From Paragonimus westermani (taxonomy: Eukaryota; Platyhelminthes; Trematoda; Plagiorchiida; Troglotrematidae), in the NCBI GenBank assembly GCA_008508345.1, contig QNGE01000914.1, positions 91,606 through 155,605 of the forward strand: DNA of 64,000 nucleotides, given 5' to 3'. Below, piece by piece: positions 1 through 56,813 of this stretch. Every line of letters begins with the position of its first letter. The stretch's first letter is position 1. The position numbers and the translations under genes were made by a program. Below the pieces are notes generated by a model. That model did no database searches. It was not told the origin of the DNA and saw only the letters and a list, made by a program, of their open reading frames with translations.

Positions 1-1854
1 TTTCAAACCTCCTAACACGTTGTATACTGTTCCACATTCCCCTGCGGTCGACCAATTGACAATATCTGAGTCACTGCAAGCAACGTCATCTAACTAGAGA
101 ACATTACACATGGGAAAACGCATGACAGTTTTCGATACTAACCTAAGGATACCACCTCCAAACCAATTAATTGGGTGAAATGTTATCATGTATCGTCGTT
201 TCCGACAGTTGATGGTTTTTCACGATGACAGTTGTATTGTATTCTTATATGTTCGTCGACTCTGACGCAATTTCAACTTGATGTAATGAACAAGAGGATA
301 GTATCTGTGAACTACACTTGAAGACATGATCGTACAATACCATAAGTATGAAGACATCCAGTAACTTACTAAAGTATCACAATGCCTTATTGAGCGAAAC
401 CAGTGCACACCGACTGCGTTCAGTAAGACATAGGCAAGCATTTCCGAATATACATCATACATAGTATACATAGTATAAATATATTTATACGTATGCACGC
501 TCCTTGCCTCTTTTGTTTTAACACAACTCTGTGCAGTGGTAATGTAGCAGTACTTGATAAATCACCTCCAAAGATGGACAAACGCACAACGCGCTTTGAT
601 ATTAAAAGCCTCAGGGCTTGTCAACAACCGGTGAACTCATGGATTAGAAGCACTCCGCATCAACAGGTTTGCCGACCCACGAACTAATGCGTCAATCGGC
701 TCCGGTCGCAATTATGCCGTGTGGTCCAACGGGTACATCCAATCTACAAGGCCACAAACATCTGTCGCCTCCGTCCTGCGTCATCCGGCCTTGAACGATA
801 ATATACCAACGAACTTATTCGTCATCTACATGAAACCAAGCAGCAGCCGTGCGTAGATGGCAACATGCGGCCAATCACAATCCGCTAGCATACCGACACT
901 AATTTGACCCTGCTTCACCCCATATGTTTCGCTGGTTGTGCTCGTGGGGACCTGTTTCAACGGCCGTTGGTTCATTGAACGTAAGCCGACATGATCCACA
1001 AGAGGGTTTTTCTAGGCAGGTGGTGCGCTAGTTCAAGGATCATGCACACTGACCGGGACAGCTAAAAAAGGGTCACAATTTCACTAGTTGCTGTCTTCAT
1101 CACTCTCAACGTGTACTGTGGAAACATCAATGGTAGGTGGGATTACTGAAAAAGCACTCTGCAGCTTCGTAAAAATTGTAAACTCGGAAGAATGTACCAT
1201 TTTATAATCCATAGTTTGGGCGGTATGGAAGAAATATCAGATTGCTGGAGGTCGTAAACAATCGGTTGATACTGGTTACGGTATATCTGACCTCGTATGC
1301 TTCATGAACTTCACTAAGCTCATATGCCTCAACCATATAATCGTAGTCAACATCCGATTAATGTATATATATAATATATATAATATATTATCCTCAGTCG
1401 TCCTTGGTAGAAAAATGAGACGTTGTATGTGTGTCTAAATGGACCATGTACACCAATCAGGGATGGTGAAATTTCGGAATACGCCATGATAGCTGTATGC
1501 AAAAACTAGAACGAACGCTGTCACGGACATAGCACAGTTGTTATTACCAAGCTTACTATATACACCAATAGGAAACTTCGAAAGCGGTAAAAGTCACGCA
1601 CTGGCAAAAATGTGTACGTACACCGGAGAGAAAAAATCAACCAAAGGCATGCAAGTTGAAAATGAGGGAATTGAGATCAAATTGGTCCTATTCACGAAGA
1701 AGTCAAAAAAGACCGCTTGTGACGGAGTTGGCAAAATTGGTCGAAGTTAAATCGCTCGAAATTTTGGTTGGGTTAGTATTTAGTAATCGACTGATGAAGT
1801 GAATAGAAACGAAGTGGGACATAGACTGAACAAGTGAACTCATTTGAATTGCTT
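1..1854. other. Unassigned sequence with an AT-rich microsatellite
   Basis: I see no supported gene here. An imperfect TA/TAA run lies at about 1362-1392. The segment around 600-1000 is richer in GC than its surroundings and could be an old transposon, but no reading frame gives a recognisable motif. Short open frames at 493-687 and 1538-1750 look like chance. Confidence 0.4.
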
Positions 1855-3338
1855 TTATGCAGCTGACAATGACAAGTGCTTCAGAGAAGCAGTGAAGTTC
1901 GGTTGATTTTCATCAGCAGAGTTCTCAGACATCAACCGCACCACCTTAGAGATCAGTCGCCTAGCCAAACCGACATAATTTGCACAATTATCGCTCTGAG
2001 CGTATGAGTGGAATGTGGGGACCAGCAGTGACTGACCGTTGTTGATGACGTGGTCGGAAGCAGCCGTTGTGCACTCGATAGCTTGCCAAATCTTACTTCG
2101 TGCCACTTGATGGAGCGATGCGTGCCTTTTAAGAAGTTGTTGTCCGACGGCCAAAAGTGGAAGCTTCTGGACTGTGGCAACTGTTCCACTTCTCTTATCT
2201 ATTAATAAGTCTGATCATTAGGTACCCATCACGGAACGAAGAATTGGCGTTCCGCATAATAACCAATGCTGTAGCGTATCTTCATCGGTTGCGCGTGAGC
2301 ATATTAATCATAAACCACTTGTTCACGACCAGACTGGATATCTGGCTGCACACGTTCCTGCTGATGTGCACTCGGCACAGAAGTTGGTGGACGTGTAGTA
2401 GATGTATAGCCGCACTATTGTCCATGGTCAATATCCTTTTCTCCACCGACCCAACGAAGATCACAAGGTGTTGATAAAACAAGGCAGTAGCTACCGCAGT
2501 TTCATTTGTCAACCAGCCGAAGTAAATCAGTAAACCTACAACGCTAACTTCTGCAATCACCAAAACGAACAGGCTATAGCCTTCCTTACAACTCACACAT
2601 GTAACATCGATCCTAATAACCTCGGGGAAGCGCCGGCTTGAGTCTGTTTGTTCATTACTCCCAAATATGAAGTGGGTTGGACGTTTTCCATTATCTACGT
2701 TAAATTAGCACTTACTGGTTATGTTCACTTAGACATGCAAACTGTCCACCTAGCCAATCGTGCTTCCGTTCGAAATCAATCAAGCGTAGAGATTACATAC
2801 ATCCTTTGTCGTTGTCTTCCTGTCGAAATGTTGCCCCATGTGTTGCGTAACTCTGAATAAGACAGTGCCACAGAGCATCCGCGACCAAATTCCCCTGACT
2901 CCTCCACCTGGGACAACACTTTGAAGCTTCTTGTTGGACTGCGATGACGCCACAAGGATGATCATACACCATGAGAAACTTCGCGACTCGAAATCTTCCG
3001 TCCACGTTGCGACTGATGTTGAGGTGTAAATTGCATCCAATCTGACCGGTTGCCCCCTTCCGTACGCAGAAAGATGACCACAAGACGTTTACCCTGTAGA
3101 CACATGCATATAGACGTTTCTTATGATCACCGTGCGCAGGTTTGGATGATCGTATGCAGTATGAACAGTCGAGTTGAACTTTGGAACATACAAGCTTTTC
3201 TGCAGACGCCTCTAAATTTTGAAACTTTCGTGGAGACACGACACTACCACAATGCTGCTGAAGCAATATAGATAAATCATCAGCAATCTCACTCGCGCTA
3301 CTTGTTAAAAAGAAGGCATTCTTCTGGCTTAAATGCAC
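1855..3338 (-). pseudogene. Decayed MULE transposase / ZSWIM3-like gene (FAR1-like domain plus MULE DDE region)
   Basis: Three minus-strand blocks follow the order of MULE-derived proteins (Mutator-like transposases and the related ZSWIM family). Block 1 (3338-2793, 181 codons open) has a FAR1/SWIM-type DNA-binding look: a Cys pair, then IGCNLHLNISRNVDGRFRV and a DHPC end resembling the C...HNHP zinc-binding pattern. Block 2 (about 2640-2282) reads FPEVIRIDVTCVSC, GYSLFVLVI and NETAVATALF, then LLCRVHISRNV. These match the first catalytic Asp strand, the following strand and the CxxH segment of the MULE domain. Block 3 (2154-1855) reads like the alpha-helical C-terminal part of ZSWIM proteins. 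Blocks lie in different frames with stops between (for example before 2793 and near 2220), so the copy is broken. It is either a transposon remnant or a dead ZSWIM paralogue. Family assignment is by motif memory only. Confidence 0.55.
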
Positions 3339-12287: not shown

Positions 12288-13500
12288 CCCTCAGAAACAT
12301 CAACAATTCCACCTCCAGCACACGCCGAAGCACGTGCTGAACGTTTACGAATGGGTTGGCCATCGTAGCTCGGGTATGTCTCCCAAGCTTCTGTCTCAGG
12401 GTTTCTGGTGACGCCGAAGCTGAATCTCGTGGTCGAGCTGGAGTGGGAATGGTACTAAGTTCCTGAGCAGAGCAATATTTGCTCGATTGGATCCCTGTGG
12501 ACAGTCGCTTGTGCGCTGTCAGACTCAATACGTTGGTAAAAGTCTGTCAACGCAAAGCAGAAAGGCGTTGTGTATTCATCACACCGGCAAACGCTCCGAC
12601 GGACAGCTGTCCGGATGCTACCAAGGATGCGTTCTATGACGCCCTCGTTGACTTTCGGAGGTAATCTAAACACTCAGACATCATCACACTAGCGGGCGAT
12701 TTTAATGCTCAGCTTGGTCGTCCTTCTCCGGATGAGAGGCGGCTAGGAGATATGTTTGGTGTCGGGGCACAACGAACTGACAATGGCGAAAGACTACTAC
12801 AGCTGTGCGCATCCCACGGTCTATATGTTTCGAGCACTGCATTCCAACACAGGAAGAAGCACTGTGTTACTTGGAGACCTCCGTGTGCTTCTCAGTCGTG
12901 GACACAGTTGGATCATATAGCAGTTAGCTATAGGTGGCGCGACTGTTAAGGACTGTCGTGCATTTTGGAGCAACCACCTGGACTCCGACCATGCCGTTGT
13001 GCGTGCCCGTTTCGTTTTGTCATTTGCCCAGAAGACTTACGCTCGTAAATGCAAGGTGTTTAACTGGCATTCGAGCGATGAGGATGTAAAGAACGCTTGT
13101 CAAAAAGCGTTGGCAAAGAAGTTGCCCAGTTCGAGTTAGACGAACAAGCATGTTCCGAAGGGACTGTTCAGTTCCGACAGAACTGGATTTCCGTCACGTC
13201 GATAAATCTTATGAACAAGCGTCGCTCTACCCCACCTGGTTCTGTATACGATGACGACCGTCGAGAACTTAATCGCAAGCTGACTAAAAGCTTGCGCAAA
13301 GACCGTGAGTACTACTTGGTCCAACAATCGAAAGAGATGGAAGAGGCCTTTTTATCTGGGAATACCAGAAGGCTCTTCTCCCTGATCCGTGGTTGTACTG
13401 GCCGTCAAGTCGGTGTAAGTGAGACCATATGTGAAAAAGATGGTTCACTTATCACCAGCCAGTCGCGCCGACTTGACCGGTGGGCTGAACATTTTGAAGA

Positions 13501-14015
13501 NNNNNNNNNNNNNNNNNNNNNNNNNNNNNNNNNNNNNNNNNNNNNNNNNNNNNNNNNNNNNNNNNNNNNNNNNNNNNNNNNNNNNNNNNNNNNNNNNNNN
13601 NNNNNNNNNNNNNNNNNNNNNNNNNNNNNNNNNNNNNNNNNNNNNNNNNNNNNNNNNNNNNNNNNNNNNNNNNNNNNNNNNNNNNNNNNNNNNNNNNNNN
13701 NNNNNNNNNNNNNNNNNNNNNNNNNNNNNNNNNNNNNNNNNNNNNNNNNNNNNNNNNNNNNNNNNNNNNNNNNNNNNNNNNNNNNNNNNNNNNNNNNNNN
13801 NNNNNNNNNNNNNNNNNNNNNNNNNNNNNNNNNNNNNNNNNNNNNNNNNNNNNNNNNNNNNNNNNNNNNNNNNNNNNNNNNNNNNNNNNNNNNNNNNNNN
13901 NNNNNNNNNNNNNNNNNNNNNNNNNNNNNNNNNNNNNNNNNNNNNNNNNNNNNNNNNNNNNNNNNNNNNNNNNNNNNNNNNNNNNNNNNNNNNNNNNNNN
14001 NNNNNNNNNNNNNNN
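13501..14015. other. Assembly gap (515 Ns)
   Basis: Unsequenced bases inside the LINE. They hide the reverse transcriptase catalytic region. Any frame drawn through this interval is meaningless. Confidence 0.99.
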
Positions 14016-14715
14016 GTCAGCCTGTAATATTGCTGATGAGATATCAGCGAGGATAGCAAAGGCACGAGTTGCCTTTTCCAAACTGCATCATCTGTGGCGT
14101 CGAAAAGACGTTCTGTTGTCGCTATATATAACGCCTGTGTGCGTTCCATTTTAATGTATGGTTCGGAAACGTGACTTGTTCACAAGGAAGATATCAACAG
14201 ACTTGCTGTGTTTGACCGTCGTTGTCTCCGTCACTTGTCCCAAATTAAGTGTGCTGATCGCGTGAGCAATGTGGCAGTGCGCCGGCGCGTATTCCGGAAC
14301 GTTCGGGATGCGCGATCAATTGGTCAACTGATTACGTCGCACGTGCTCCGTATGCCAGCTGCGTGTTTACCTTACCGGGCATTATATACTGAGGCCACCA
14401 ACAGCTGTGTAAAACCGCGTGGTCACGAAATATGAAGACCTTGACTGCTCCATTGAGCAAAGTGGGCAGGCGTTGCCTGCCTGGATGAGGTCCCCGTGAT
14501 CACTCAATCCGCTGATTAGATACGCTATCCGAGATGGCGGTGTATCGCAGTCTATGGCGTACTTGTATCCACACCATTTCTATTTCTTCCGCTTAGTCTT
14601 CTTTTAGTATTTGTCGACCTTCTAATTAATGTTTCCTTCTAGAGTATTCCACGTTACTGTTGAGGTGAGCAGTGGCCCGAGCCACAGTACCTTTTGGTCA
14701 GGCTCATGGCTATTA

Positions 14716-24403: not shown

Positions 24404-24513
24404 TTTATTTGTTTATTCGATTATTTTTCTACATTTTCTACACAACCCCCCAAAATTTTCTTTTCTCCATTTGATCGACTCCTTCTTTGAGTGTTTTTTC
24501 TCTCTCCCTGAAC

Positions 24514-25341
24514 ATGACCGATTCTGAACCAGATCCCACCGCATCGGAGAATGCAGTTTATGTCAAACTTCCTGAGTTCGGTAGTCGCGATCCTAGGCTT
24601 TGGTTTGCTCAAGTCGAGGCTATCTTTGATTCTAGAAGAATACGTTCTCAAAAGTCCATGTATAATTTCATAGTTGCCAACCTCCCCGAGCAGGTCGCTA
24701 CCGAGGTCGCCGACCTCATCTACACTCGACCCAGCGTTAGCCCGTACGACACTCTAGAGGCCGCAATCATCGGACGAACTGCAGCAACCGACGAGCAGAA
24801 CCTGCGCAAACTTCTGGCAGGAGTAGAGTTGGGTGACAGAACTCCTTCACAACTCCTCCGTCACATGACACAGCTTCAGAGCAAACATACGGTAAACGAA
24901 CCAATTCTACGTGAGTTGTGGCACAAAAATCTGCCAGACGATATTCGAAAAGTATTGTCTATACTTGATAAGGACACACCACTCCAAAAACTTGCAGAGC
25001 TGGCTGACCAAGTATATGAGAGTTATCAGAGTCGCACTGTATCTCATGTGCATTCATCAGAAGTGTCTTCAGGCCGTAGTTGGCCGACGGAAGTGGACGC
25101 TCTGGAACAGCAGTTTTCCGAAATGTCCATGCAGCTCTCTGCAATCTCTAAACAACTGGCAGCCCAGTCAGGAGGCCCTCCCTACCGCCGCCAGTCCCGA
25201 AGTCGTTCACGCAGACGGCGAGGCAGTCGAAACGTGTGTTACCAACATCGTCGGTTTGGCGCTAAAGCTGTCCGTTGTACCAGACCATGCAGTTTTGCTA
25301 AGGATAACCCTCATTCGGGAAACGCGGAGGCCAGACAGTAA
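24514..25341 (+). CDS. gag: Gag protein of the Ty3/gypsy element
   Basis: An intact frame of 275 codons from the first ATG at 24514. The open frame extends a few codons upstream to 24487 but without ATG. The N-terminal two thirds (KLPEFGSRDPRLWFAQVEAI, then NLPEQVATEVADLI and LRHMTQLQS) match the capsid-like Gag region found in flatworm and arthropod gypsy elements. It is followed by a Ser/Arg-rich basic stretch (RRQSRSRSRRRRGSR) and a single Cys/His cluster, CYQHRRFGAKAVRCTRPC, the atypical zinc finger of this Gag family. The stop (25339-25341) overlaps an ATG at 25341 in the -1 frame, where ATAVHGASNCRLFYVFDRS looks like the start of the protease. Pol is lost just before the expected aspartic protease active site. 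An open gag in an otherwise dead element is notable. Confidence 0.85.
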   Translation: MTDSEPDPTASENAVYVKLPEFGSRDPRLWFAQVEAIFDSRRIRSQKSMYNFIVANLPEQVATEVADLIYTRPSVSPYDTLEAAIIGRTAATDEQNLRKLLAGVELGDRTPSQLLRHMTQLQSKHTVNEPILRELWHKNLPDDIRKVLSILDKDTPLQKLAELADQVYESYQSRTVSHVHSSEVSSGRSWPTEVDALEQQFSEMSMQLSAISKQLAAQSGGPPYRRQSRSRSRRRRGSRNVCYQHRRFGAKAVRCTRPCSFAKDNPHSGNAEARQ

Positions 25342-33249: not shown

Positions 33250-34950
<1,701 letters not shown>

Positions 34951-35113
34951 CCGAAAATGGCGATCAATAAGCACAAGATCCACGCAAGAGGGCCATTTTT
35001 ATACTGAATACTGGTGAAAACGTTTCCCTCACACCTTCCGCAATAAGTGTCACACGCATCTGGGCCGAACGTGGAAGGCGCGAACTTAGTTGCAATCGGC
35101 TGAGTGACCACAG
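34951..35113 (-). CDS. Internal exon of a LITAF-domain protein
   Basis: The minus-strand frame reads VVTQPIATKFAPSTFGPDAC, then DTYCGRCEGNVFTSIQYKNG and PLAWILCLLIAIFG. This is the first half of a LITAF (LPS-induced TNF factor-like) domain: Pro-rich/FGP lead, CxxC zinc pair, charged link and the start of the hydrophobic membrane-inserting helix. LITAF proteins are small monotopic proteins of late endosome and lysosome membranes. The exon starts after a good acceptor (TTATTCCTATTGTAG) at 35113. It ends at 34951 before GCAAGT, a classical non-canonical GC donor, leaving GG to complete the expected Gly codon. The second half of the domain (hydrophobic end and HxCxxC pair) should lie on another exon at lower coordinates, which I could not find. 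The first exon is also not identified. It could be a lone pseudogene fragment, but clean splice borders argue for a real gene. Confidence 0.72.
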
Positions 35114-36547
35114 CTACAATAGGAATAATTATGTCCAGCAAAAATGCAATATTACCGAAAACCAACTCTTGTGTCATGATGGGGGAAATAATGGTGCAAC
35201 AACCGGGCACGTCATCAAGCGCACAGAATAGAATTATTTACTTTAATGCATCCACATGCATTTAACTCATTCGTCAAGTGGTCTAATCTGATAAGTTCTA
35301 ATCTACATACTTAACTGTTATAGAACACAGCGGTTTCGAAGCAGACTGTGATACTACTCTCTGGCTAGGCTGACTCACTTTGTGTATCTCAGGATTTTAG
35401 CCCGGCCATGGGTTAAAAGATTTGTCTTTGTAATACAAAAGTGCTCCCATCAAAAATGCTTCAGAGACTTATAGAACTGAGCACAACACATTTAGGCTAC
35501 AGCGATCAACAGAAAACGGCTGGCTGACGTTACATCTAATCCCCAATAGAGGAGACATAATCATGTCAATTACAGTCACAGAAAATTATTGACAGATAAC
35601 AGGAATGAATTAAAAGCCAAATTGTCAGCATCACAACCAAATGATGGGAATGTACTGTAAAACATTGAGTTGACAAATGCAAGACAGAATTGTAGACTGT
35701 GTGATTGCAACTCATAAAATGCAAGGAGCGTATGAATCGAATAAGCGGAAAATAGCATATTACAACCTAACGTAATAAGTCCGATCTGATGAACAAATGA
35801 CCATCAATTTACGGTAAGTTTTGATTGTTATAAGCTTCACATTCAGAGAACCCTGTTATTTGTAGTAAATAAGCTAAAGAAGGATAAACCAAAAAATCGA
35901 AAAAAAATTCCACAGATATTTAACATTGCAAGCAAAGGTGAGCAGAGTGCAGTATAACACTTGAACTCCGTGAACGAGACAAGCTGGAAGAGAAATATGT
36001 AGAGGGTTTGTCTAACCTATGGATGTGGTTAACAGAAACTTTGTCTCCAAGTTCATCGTCTCTTACCAACTGGCTTGACACAATCTTATGGTATAAGGAC
36101 AATCTATGAGTTACTTTGATTTAGGTGAGAAAGCTACATATGTTGATGACACTTCATTCTCTTCAACATAAAGATTAAATAAACAAACGGCTAAACTAGT
36201 TAACTATTTTGGAAGGATGTAAACACAGACTATGTAGGGGTTTGACAGTCTTATTAACTGGTTGAAATAAAACGTCAGACCTTCGACGTTATTAAAAACA
36301 AATGCGATTTGTGTAAAGTATTGTTAATCCGGGGCAGTATAGTCAACTAACTAGCCTACGAAGTCGCGAAGAAGCTGCTGAACCCATTTTAGTTGAGGTA
36401 AAAAAACGTGACAACTGAGGGCAGCTGAAGTTACACCTGTTAAGTAGAAAGTGAATGTAAATATTAATATTAACAAACTCAATGACACAAAGTTATTTGT
36501 GCCGTTTTTTGTTGATGTTCTTCACTCCGCTTGTAAATGAAAATCTC
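35114..36547. other. Unassigned, possible upstream intron of the LITAF-type gene
   Basis: AT-rich sequence with no motif. Short open frames at 35576-35758 and 35920-36102 (minus) are not convincing. Confidence 0.35.
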
Positions 36548-36912
36548 CTACTACTCATCAGCAGTTAAAATACCGCCCAACAAGTTAACGAGTTCTGCAA
36601 TTTCAGCTTGAAAAGAAGTCATGGTAGAGCGGTCGTCGATTGGACTTACACGGCAGTTACTCTCTCCTCTCAAGCTGATCTATACTCACAAGCAAAAGTG
36701 GTTGAGCGTTCACGTATAATGTTTTGGTCCTGCATAGTGTGAATTTAATGGTACAACGGTTGTCTCATGAAGGCATCGCTGGAGATCTAATCTCTGTCGT
36801 GGCAGGCAAATGCACTAGTGACGAGCTCTAATGGCAGCGAAACTCGAGTCTAGTAGATTTTTTCAAACAGACCGACTGGAAAATCTATGGGAATGCGACA
36901 GCTGGGTGAATC
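36548..36912 (+). mobile_element. Old copy of the 431-bp hammerhead-bearing element, plus orientation
   Basis: It aligns from end to end with the reverse complement of 46600-47026. The head CTACTCATCAG is at about 36551, GTGGTTGAGCG at about 36693, a decayed tRNA-like part at 36745-36800 (A-box mostly deleted, B-box altered), the ribozyme remnant at 36812-36856 and the tail to about 36912. Identity is low (roughly 70-75 percent by eye), so this is the oldest of the three copies. Confidence 0.8.
36812..36856 (+). ncRNA. Decayed hammerhead ribozyme
   Basis: GCACTA, GTGACGA, GCTCTAATGGCAGC, GAAA, CTCGAGTC and TAGTAG follow each other in hammerhead order. The first core base is changed (CTGACGA to GTGACGA), helix II has mismatches and helix I is shortened. 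It is not expected to cleave. Confidence 0.7.
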
Positions 36913-46587: not shown

Positions 46588-46600
46588 CTGAACATAGTGT
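46588..46600. repeat. Target site duplication, left copy
   Basis: CTGAACATAGTGT here is repeated as CTGAACACAGTGT at 47132-47144, with one mismatch. The length suits LINE-type target-primed insertion of the block between. Confidence 0.65.
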
Positions 46601-46674
46601 TTTCAAGTTGACCGTCACTCTCATTTGATCGCAGCCTTCTCATTCGGATAGACTTTCCAGCCAGCCTCTTTCGA

Positions 46675-46733
46675 AAAGAAGCACTAGACTCGAGTTTCGC
46701 TCTCATTAGAGCTCGTCAGTAGTGCATATCCTT
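46675..46733 (-). ncRNA. Type I hammerhead ribozyme, complete
   Basis: All parts of the fold are visible on the minus strand. Helix I outer part AAGGA pairs UCUUU, followed by an internal loop (UAU against U). The inner helix I GCACUA pairs UAGUGC perfectly. Next comes core CUGACGA, then helix II GCUCU-AAUG-AGAGC (5 bp, tetraloop) and core GAAA. Helix III is only AC/GU with loop UCGA, followed by C17. Cleavage is predicted after GUC, between 46687 and 46686. The very short helix III with palindromic ACUCGAGU is typical of hammerheads that act best as dimers. The internal loop in helix I opposite loop II is where natural hammerheads make the tertiary contact that gives activity at low magnesium. 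Basis: sequence plus the known consensus. Activity is inferred. Confidence 0.92.
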
Positions 46734-46743
46734 GCCACGGCCG

Positions 46744-46798
46744 GGATTTGAACTCCGGACATTCCAATCATGAGGCAACCGTGTTAACCACTGCGCCA
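46744..46798 (-). promoter_or_regulatory. Internal RNA polymerase III promoter (A- and B-box, tRNA-like)
   Basis: Minus strand: TGGCGCAGTGG (46798-46788) is an excellent A-box and GGAGTTCAAATCC (46756-46744) a good B-box. The intervening GGTTAACACGGTTGCC-like sequence and CCGG arms recall a tRNA body. Transcription would start about 12 nt upstream of the A-box and run into the ribozyme. Confidence 0.75.
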
Positions 46799-47131
46799 TT
46801 GACCTCACATTAGGCACGACCGAATCATCAAATCTGAACGCTCAACCACTCTCGCTTGTGAGCAATGATCAGGTTGCCCGATCGTCTCGAGAGGAGACAC
46901 AGTTACTGCCTGTTAACTCCAATCGATAACCCCGCGATTAGGACTTCCGAGACAGGTCGAGATCACAGAACTCATTAAACCTGCAAGGCGATATTTTAGA
47001 TTACTGATGAGTAGTCGGGGATTTGGTTTATTTTCAAGTTGACCGTCACTCTCATTTGATCGCAGCCTTCTCATTCAGATAGACTTTCCAGCCAGCCTCT
47101 TTCGAAAAGAAGCACTAGACTCATCAGTAAT

Positions 47132-47144
47132 CTGAACACAGTGT
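47132..47144. repeat. Target site duplication, right copy
   Basis: CTGAACACAGTGT, partner of 46588-46600. Confidence 0.65.
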
Positions 47145-56369: not shown

Positions 56370-56379
56370 AAAAACTTGA
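56370..56379. repeat. Target site duplication, left copy
   Basis: AAAAACTTGA, repeated exactly at 56804-56813. Confidence 0.6.
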
Positions 56380-56436
56380 CTACTGATGAGTAGTCGGGAG
56401 TTTGGTTGATCGCAGCCTTCGCATTCAGATAAAGGC

Positions 56437-56481
56437 GTGTTAGACTCGAGTTCCGCTCTCATTAGAACTCGTCAGTGGTGC
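56437..56481 (-). ncRNA. Hammerhead ribozyme, mutated core (left arm)
   Basis: The minus strand keeps CTGACGA and a helix II (GTTCTAATGAGAGC), but the GAAA core is GGAA, and helix I strands (GCACCA and TAACAC) pair poorly. Probably inactive. Confidence 0.72.
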
Positions 56482-56681
56482 ATATCCTTGCCACGGCCGG
56501 GATTTGAACTCCGGCCACACTTTCATGAGGCAATCGTGTTGACTACTGCGTCATTGATCTCAAATTGGGCACGATCGAATCATCAAATCTGAACGCTCAA
56601 CCACTTTCGTATGTAAGCAATGATCAGGTTGCTCGATCGTCTCGATGGTGACACACCAACTGTCCTGGTAGTCGGGGATAT

Positions 56682-56727
56682 GCACTGCTGACGAGCTCTA
56701 ATGCGAGCGGGGCTGGAGTCTAATGGG
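56682..56727 (+). ncRNA. Hammerhead ribozyme, mutated core (right, inverted arm)
   Basis: The plus strand keeps GCACTG, CTGACGA and helix II (GCTC...GAGC), but GAAA has become GGGG and helix III is disrupted (CTGGAGTC). Inactive. Confidence 0.7.
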
Positions 56728-56803
56728 TCTTTTCGAACCAGGCTAGCTGCGAATTTTAGCTGAATGCAAAGACTGCGATCAAATGTGTGCGATGTTCAAC
56801 TAG

Positions 56804-56813
56804 AAAAACTTGA
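56804..56813. repeat. Target site duplication, right copy
   Basis: AAAAACTTGA, identical to 56370-56379. Confidence 0.6.

Follow-up and report, generated by a model that had tools for sequence, protein, structure and literature searches.

The window analyzed here is a stretch of 64,000 nucleotides of the Paragonimus westermani genome. On its minus strand it carries a type I hammerhead ribozyme inside a dispersed, non-coding repeat of 431 nt, which is present as one full unit and part of a second. The features of this insertion, and of two older copies elsewhere in the window, are as follows (positions are those of the window).

46687..47117, minus: full 431-nt unit, with unit 1 at 47117 and unit 431 at 46687, delimited by the exact 431 spacing
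46675..46733, minus: hammerhead including outer helix I, from the covariance match (46681-46725) and the letters
46733..46804, minus: tRNA-like head, with box A at 46788-46798 and box B at 46744-46753, from the box pattern
47031 and 47001: proposed start site 1 (unit 87) and proposed start site 2 (unit 117)
46600..46686, minus: partial second unit (unit 1-87), ending at start site 1, from segmentation and the 92-bp repeat
47120..47133, plus: short inverted arm, with its outer end at start site 2, from segmentation and the letters
46588..46599, plus: target-site duplication, 3′ (right) end, CTGAACATAGTG vs. CTGAACACAGTG, 11 of 12 positions alike
47132..47143, plus: target-site duplication, 5′ (left) end, sharing 2 nt with the arm
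36530..36904, plus: older copy whose ribozyme core is broken
56378..56807, no strand: older copy, head-to-head inverted, with two ribozyme remnants
36799 (plus), 56430-56500 (minus) and 56670-56745 (plus): ribozyme remnants with a core mutation

Away from the repeat, the window includes an ORF at 34929-35237 (minus) with a LITAF-like zinc ribbon (Pfam E-value 1.6 × 10^-6), probably an exon, for which a search for relatives found none; a 288-codon frame at 24475-25338 (plus) with a DUF7041 match (E-value 4.2 × 10^-25), gag-like by eye and probably a retrotransposon remnant; and a run of Ns at about 13500-14016, within what appears by eye to be a LINE frame.

The hammerhead and its 431-nt unit

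A preliminary description, made from the letters of the window, had placed a complete type I hammerhead at 46675-46733, and a search with the Rfam type I model bears this out. RF00163 scores 34.7 bits at 46681-46725 of the minus strand, above the curated cut-off of 34 (E-value 6.2 × 10^-5), and it is the sole Rfam match of the 64-kb window at gathering thresholds. It is this covariance score, barely over its cut-off, that carries the weight of the ribozyme call. The RF02275 (HH9) model aligns to 46664-46737 with 35.3 bits, under its own cut-off of 52. The bare core pattern CTGANGA..GAAAC occurs three times in the window when 1.08 occurrences are expected, and thus is worth little as evidence on its own.

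The details given in the preliminary description can also be read in the window. The core on the minus strand is CUGACGA..GAAA..UC, with the cleavage C in place. Helix I (GCACUA/UAGUGC) and helix II (GCUCU/AGAGC) pair throughout, and outer helix I (AAGGA/UCUUU), which includes one G-U pair, extends the motif to 46675-46733. Helix III, described as two base pairs with a self-complementary region, has two pairs, A-U and C-G, that enclose UCGA, and thus ACUCGAGU is an 8-nt palindrome. Cleavage is predicted between 46687 and 46686 because of the type I layout, and the palindrome of helix III suggests that the RNA probably cleaves as a dimer. The two other repeats in the window, said to hold mutated ribozymes, do so: they have three remnants, each with a mutation in the core. 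As a whole, the earlier interpretation is partly supported. A type I hammerhead in a dispersed repeat stands. That description took the ribozyme as the main finding; more informative are the surrounding retrozyme and its insertion ends of the type left by Penelope-like elements (PLEs), on which it is silent.

Our unit numbering begins at the base that follows the cleavage site. It consists of a tRNA-like head, the ribozyme and a 3′ stretch, with box A at unit positions 320-330, box B at 365-374, and the ribozyme at 393-431 and 1-6. A 92-bp direct repeat, with copies 431 bases apart, brackets the ribozyme region. The unit has a GC content of 47.8%, a longest frame of 53 amino acids, and a single run of four Ts. 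The head was identified using the box A/B consensus, a pattern that occurs once in the window, at this position, vs. a mean of 0.15 occurrences in 40 shuffles; neither ARAGORN nor Rfam (E-values up to 10) calls a tRNA there. The fold of the whole unit is no more stable than those of shuffled sequences (z −0.98).

By its size, tandem form, GC content, lack of an ORF, and ribozyme type, the element is a metazoan retrozyme. In the cited passages of PMC7229834, metazoan retrozymes are small non-coding tandem repeats with a type I hammerhead and a GC content below 50%. Retrozyme tandems with a type I hammerhead are taken to measure 150-450 bp, and the unit here measures 431 nt. Metazoan retrozymes are further characterized by unit-length RNA, linear as well as circular, in large amounts.

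Copies in the genome and where they end

A search of the genome (823 Mb in 9,701 contigs) with the repeat stretch finds at least 67 matches on at least 40 contigs (40 scored of 1,625 candidates), many of them spaced at exact steps of 431. Arrays hold from one to six full units, a count perhaps affected by the assembly; the C1766 array has six consecutive units. Mismatches to the reference unit amount to 3.2% within 40 nt of the boundary of the insertion and to 0.2-0.8% at 160-480 nt, with a single mismatch beyond 480 nt, and 43 of the 52 exact units match the majority sequence letter for letter. The array interiors have probably been collapsed by the assembler, and unit counts are therefore unsafe. 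Insertion ends, on the other hand, should be safe, because they adjoin unique flanks. The interior letters of the window copy, ribozyme included, may also be an assembler consensus and not those of the locus itself. We dropped the dating of copies by unit identity, as identity rises with distance from the flanks, which points to the assembly.

In the loci read, the ribozyme motif of the retrozyme is matched 182 times (a number that includes repeats, since some loci overlap), in 37 distinct variants, and 134 of the 182 are identical to the window ribozyme. The core, by a loose pattern, is present in 20 of the variants. A motif scan of viral contigs gave no match. Using RF00163 on the genome results in at least 42 matches, at least 35 of them over the cut-off (74 scored of 136,546 candidates). 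We sorted 30 hammerhead loci by eye, and 7 belong to the retrozyme family, 20 to a set characterized by ACAGCUGU, and 3 are near the Rfam consensus. This second, commoner set (L002-L007, L009-L011, L014, L015, L017, L020, L023, L025, L026, L028-L031) has the palindromic ACAGCUGU at helix III and inverted neighbors. Counted from the cut, its ends seem to be near +40 and +155, and it could possibly represent PLE pLTRs or another retrozyme.

Where does the retrozyme end when it inserts? We segmented 40 insertions, one per contig, against the unit. The right (3′) end falls at unit 86-94 in 20 of them and at 113-126 in another 18, two places that are about 30 nt apart; the two remaining ends are at 154 and 204. 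If ends were uniform, the chance of having 38 of 40 at two such places would be about 3 × 10^-46, for ranges chosen after seeing the data. The 40 copies were picked by their score to a query that has its own right end at 87, which disfavors ends before 87 but is unable to generate two peaks. In twelve older copies, some located via the ribozyme, others met by chance within fetched loci or lying in the window, right ends are near the same two places in eight cases (82, 83, 117, 118, 119, 126, 126, 128) and off them in two (55, 72), the last two (L001 and L022) being unreadable. Right ends cannot be read from the L019 search because its alignments stop where subfamilies diverge.

The left side of the insertions refers to the same two places. 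An inverted left arm is found in 15 of the 40 insertions, and in 12 of these the outer end of the arm is at 85-97 or 112-123, matching the two right-end places (the other three are at 55, 249, and 428). These 12 include the window copy, whose right end is at 87 and whose arm, 14 nt long, starts at about 120. We had also considered the left edge of this copy as an internally deleted ribozyme, and the segmentation rules that out in favor of an inverted arm. The two strands make opposite use of the two sites in 9 of the 12 arms, which is not significant (p 0.07). For the insertions that start with a direct left end, none of the 25 ends is within 5 nt of the ribozyme cut, and thus the templates ran across the cut. 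Five of the 25 are at the two start places (p 0.03). Nine are at unit 243-270, a cluster seen post hoc, where the reverse transcriptase perhaps stops at a hairpin.

Target duplications with a score of 9 or more, corresponding to 9-16 aligned nucleotides, are present in 16 of the 40 insertions, vs. 0.19% of 1560 mismatched pairs of flanks; a clear target duplication is absent in 24 of the 40. The duplication of the window copy is 12 bp long with one mismatch.

A tRNA-derived SINE moved by a LINE, using target-primed reverse transcription and twin priming and with the hammerhead as a passenger, would agree with several of these observations. The retrozyme has a tRNA-like head, there are LINE-like frames nearby (window 13082-13400, by eye), and LINEs too show 5′ truncation and inverted 5′ pieces. 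But the right ends are two discrete internal places about 30 nt apart, and neither has a T run or a simple repeat. Moreover, the arms finish at both right-end places, while the arm ends left by LINE twin priming are expected to be scattered internally. We find it improbable that a LINE is responsible.

Penelope-like elements and their probable role in copying the retrozyme

Paired internal ends have been described for PLEs. In the parts of PMC11167929 that we draw on, the PLE protein cleaves and extends both strands, and reverse transcription uses two adjacent internal start sites, alike for the two strands. Part of the genomic PLE copies carry a 30-40-bp tail, which is the sequence that separates the two start sites (PMC11167929). 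The reported cut at +26 and start at +111 to +118 place the start 85-92 nt after the ribozyme cut, and the first site of the retrozyme is 87 nt after its own cut. In the same account, insertion in vitro proceeds without need for the PLE's own ribozyme, so a role for the hammerhead in the insertion step is not implied. PLEs are also described as having an inverted pLTR, a 31-bp tail, and 8-10-bp duplications (PMC3846280). Read by analogy with these descriptions, the paired ends, the shared arm ends, and the target duplications of the retrozyme are the signature of a PLE.

The same genome has PLEs of its own. An endonuclease fragment (L017) has at least 150 matches in the genome (150 scored of 21,625 candidates), and one copy (in L085) retains an 839-codon frame, at 559-3078, with RVT_1. 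Pfam makes no GIY-YIG call in either the fragment or the full frame; we assign GIY-YIG to this PLE because its C-terminal part, read in fragment P0001, can be aligned to the region of a relative in which Pfam does call GIY-YIG, with 45% identity over 33 residues. Among the 120 relatives listed, the PLE protein is closest to one of Dicrocoelium dendriticum (59% over 99%); the remaining relatives with a name come from Trichobilharzia, Paragonimus, Schistosoma, and Heterobilharzia, plus one bacterial MAG. Apart from the MAG, the named relatives in this list are thus flukes, which fits the flatworm host given in the preliminary description. By eye, a hammerhead-like core lies over the start codon of the L085 PLE.

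We measured the right ends of 22 PLE copies (20 plus-strand stretches hand-chosen from the 150, together with L017 and L085). Six ends are at 638-644 and 11 at 670-679, with one each at 625, 631, and 651, and two unaligned. The two commonest ends, 640 and 670, are 30 nt apart, as are 87 and 117 in the retrozyme. For the L085 PLE, the start sites are about 32 and 62 nt after the ribozyme-like cut (by eye), vs. 87 and 117 nt for the retrozyme. A common recognition sequence 3′ of the start sites was a candidate that we abandoned: the retrozyme and the one fetched PLE copy compared with it look alike near the start sites, with a similarity not clearly above the nulls (p 0.03-0.07). With no clear sequence match and a different distance from cut to start, the helper may be another PLE family.

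In L085 (1-3276), a PLE copy sits within a retrozyme copy, near start site 1 of the retrozyme, which on the left side stops at about unit 83 and on the right side resumes ACTTGAAAAT. This PLE is a partial tandem, with 120-672 repeated at 2708-3260. In L087 (211 nt), an inverted piece of retrozyme is found within about 12 nt after a PLE right end.

The PLE signature of the retrozyme ends, together with PLEs of the same genome whose own ends have the spacing of about 30 nt, indicates that PLE enzymes probably mobilize the retrozyme. We regard it as quite probable that it is copied from two internal sites by PLE enzymes supplied in trans. The proposed course of events is as follows. The 431-nt retrozyme would be transcribed, probably from the tRNA-like head. 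By comparison with published retrozymes, the hammerhead, probably acting in dimeric form, would release unit-length RNA from the transcript, and this RNA would then probably be ligated into a circle. Both target strands would be cut by a Penelope-like enzyme that joins a reverse transcriptase to an endonuclease of the GIY-YIG type, and reverse transcription would start at one of two sites, 87 nt and about 117 nt 3′ of the ribozyme cut. One or more rounds of copying from one strand would produce the tandem, and copying from the other strand would produce the inverted left arm.

Alternatively, the two right ends could be the 3′ ends of processed RNA, copied by any reverse transcriptase. Two fixed RNA 3′ ends would yield two fixed insertion ends. 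However, the templates pass both places in every tandem, and a PLE of unrelated sequence in the same genome has an equal spacing, which leaves this explanation with very little probability. A satellite that spreads by recombination while its ribozyme decays would account for the tandem register of exactly 431 bp. It is hardly credible, however, for short insertions that are dispersed over at least 40 contigs and have fixed ends, of which 16 of 40 show target duplications, and for a helix III palindrome retained in 29 of the 37 ribozyme variants.

Copying by PLE enzymes suggests a broader generalization, which we consider possible rather than probable. Animal retrozymes, including the fluke hammerhead SINEs, may be the SINEs of Penelope elements, small RNAs defined by a tRNA-like head, a hammerhead, a closed circle, and copying by the PLE enzyme that begins at either of two fixed positions within the RNA, takes one or several rounds, and proceeds on both strands at once. 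If so, the hammerhead would exist to give an endless template to an enzyme that starts inside its RNA.

Relation to known retrozymes, PLEs, and fluke SINEs

PLEs have been named before as candidate mobilizers of retrozymes, strong candidates in the Discussion of PMC7229834 and candidates also in PMC7761336. The basis given in the cited parts of both papers is that PLEs and retrozymes both carry type I hammerheads and co-occur, to which PMC7229834 adds the tandem copies. In searches of open-licence PMC papers, judged by title, abstract, or selected passages, we recognized none that argues from insertion ends for PLE-moved retrozymes. The element is thus a new family of a known kind, and what is new about it is its PLE-type ends. 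The evidence from insertion ends is direct and can be counted, and with them the proposed link to PLEs becomes testable in any genome with retrozymes, by looking for paired right ends about 30 nt apart and for arms that share them. This genome in addition supplies both the RNA and an open PLE frame for in vitro work.

As in the metazoan non-LTR retrozymes described in PMC7229834, we find a type I hammerhead, small non-coding tandems, a GC content below 50%, no LTR-type structure, and target duplications longer than 4 bp. The unit of 431 nt is slightly above the 170-400 nt given there for the RNAs of metazoan retrozymes, and the tRNA-like head, the PLE-type paired ends, and the inverted arms are outside the retrozyme description in the cited part of that paper. 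The right-end pair about 30 nt apart, the inverted arms, the tandems, the target duplications of about 10 bp, and a hammerhead with a minimal helix III are all shared with PLEs as presented in the cited parts of PMC11167929 and PMC3846280; unlike PLEs, the retrozyme has no protein.

The parallel drawn in the preliminary description with Sm-alpha of schistosomes is an apt one, as the cited part of PMC2770079 presents it as a SINE-like, hammerhead-bearing element similar to tRNA-Gln-TTG. Like Sm-alpha and Sj-alpha (PMC2770079, PMC8490949), the element described here is SINE-like, carries a type I hammerhead, and belongs to a fluke genome; its head may likewise be tRNA-related. Compared by description and not by sequence, Sm-alpha measures 335 bp vs. 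431 nt here, and it resembles tRNA-Gln-TTG, whereas the head of this retrozyme receives no call from the tRNA finders.
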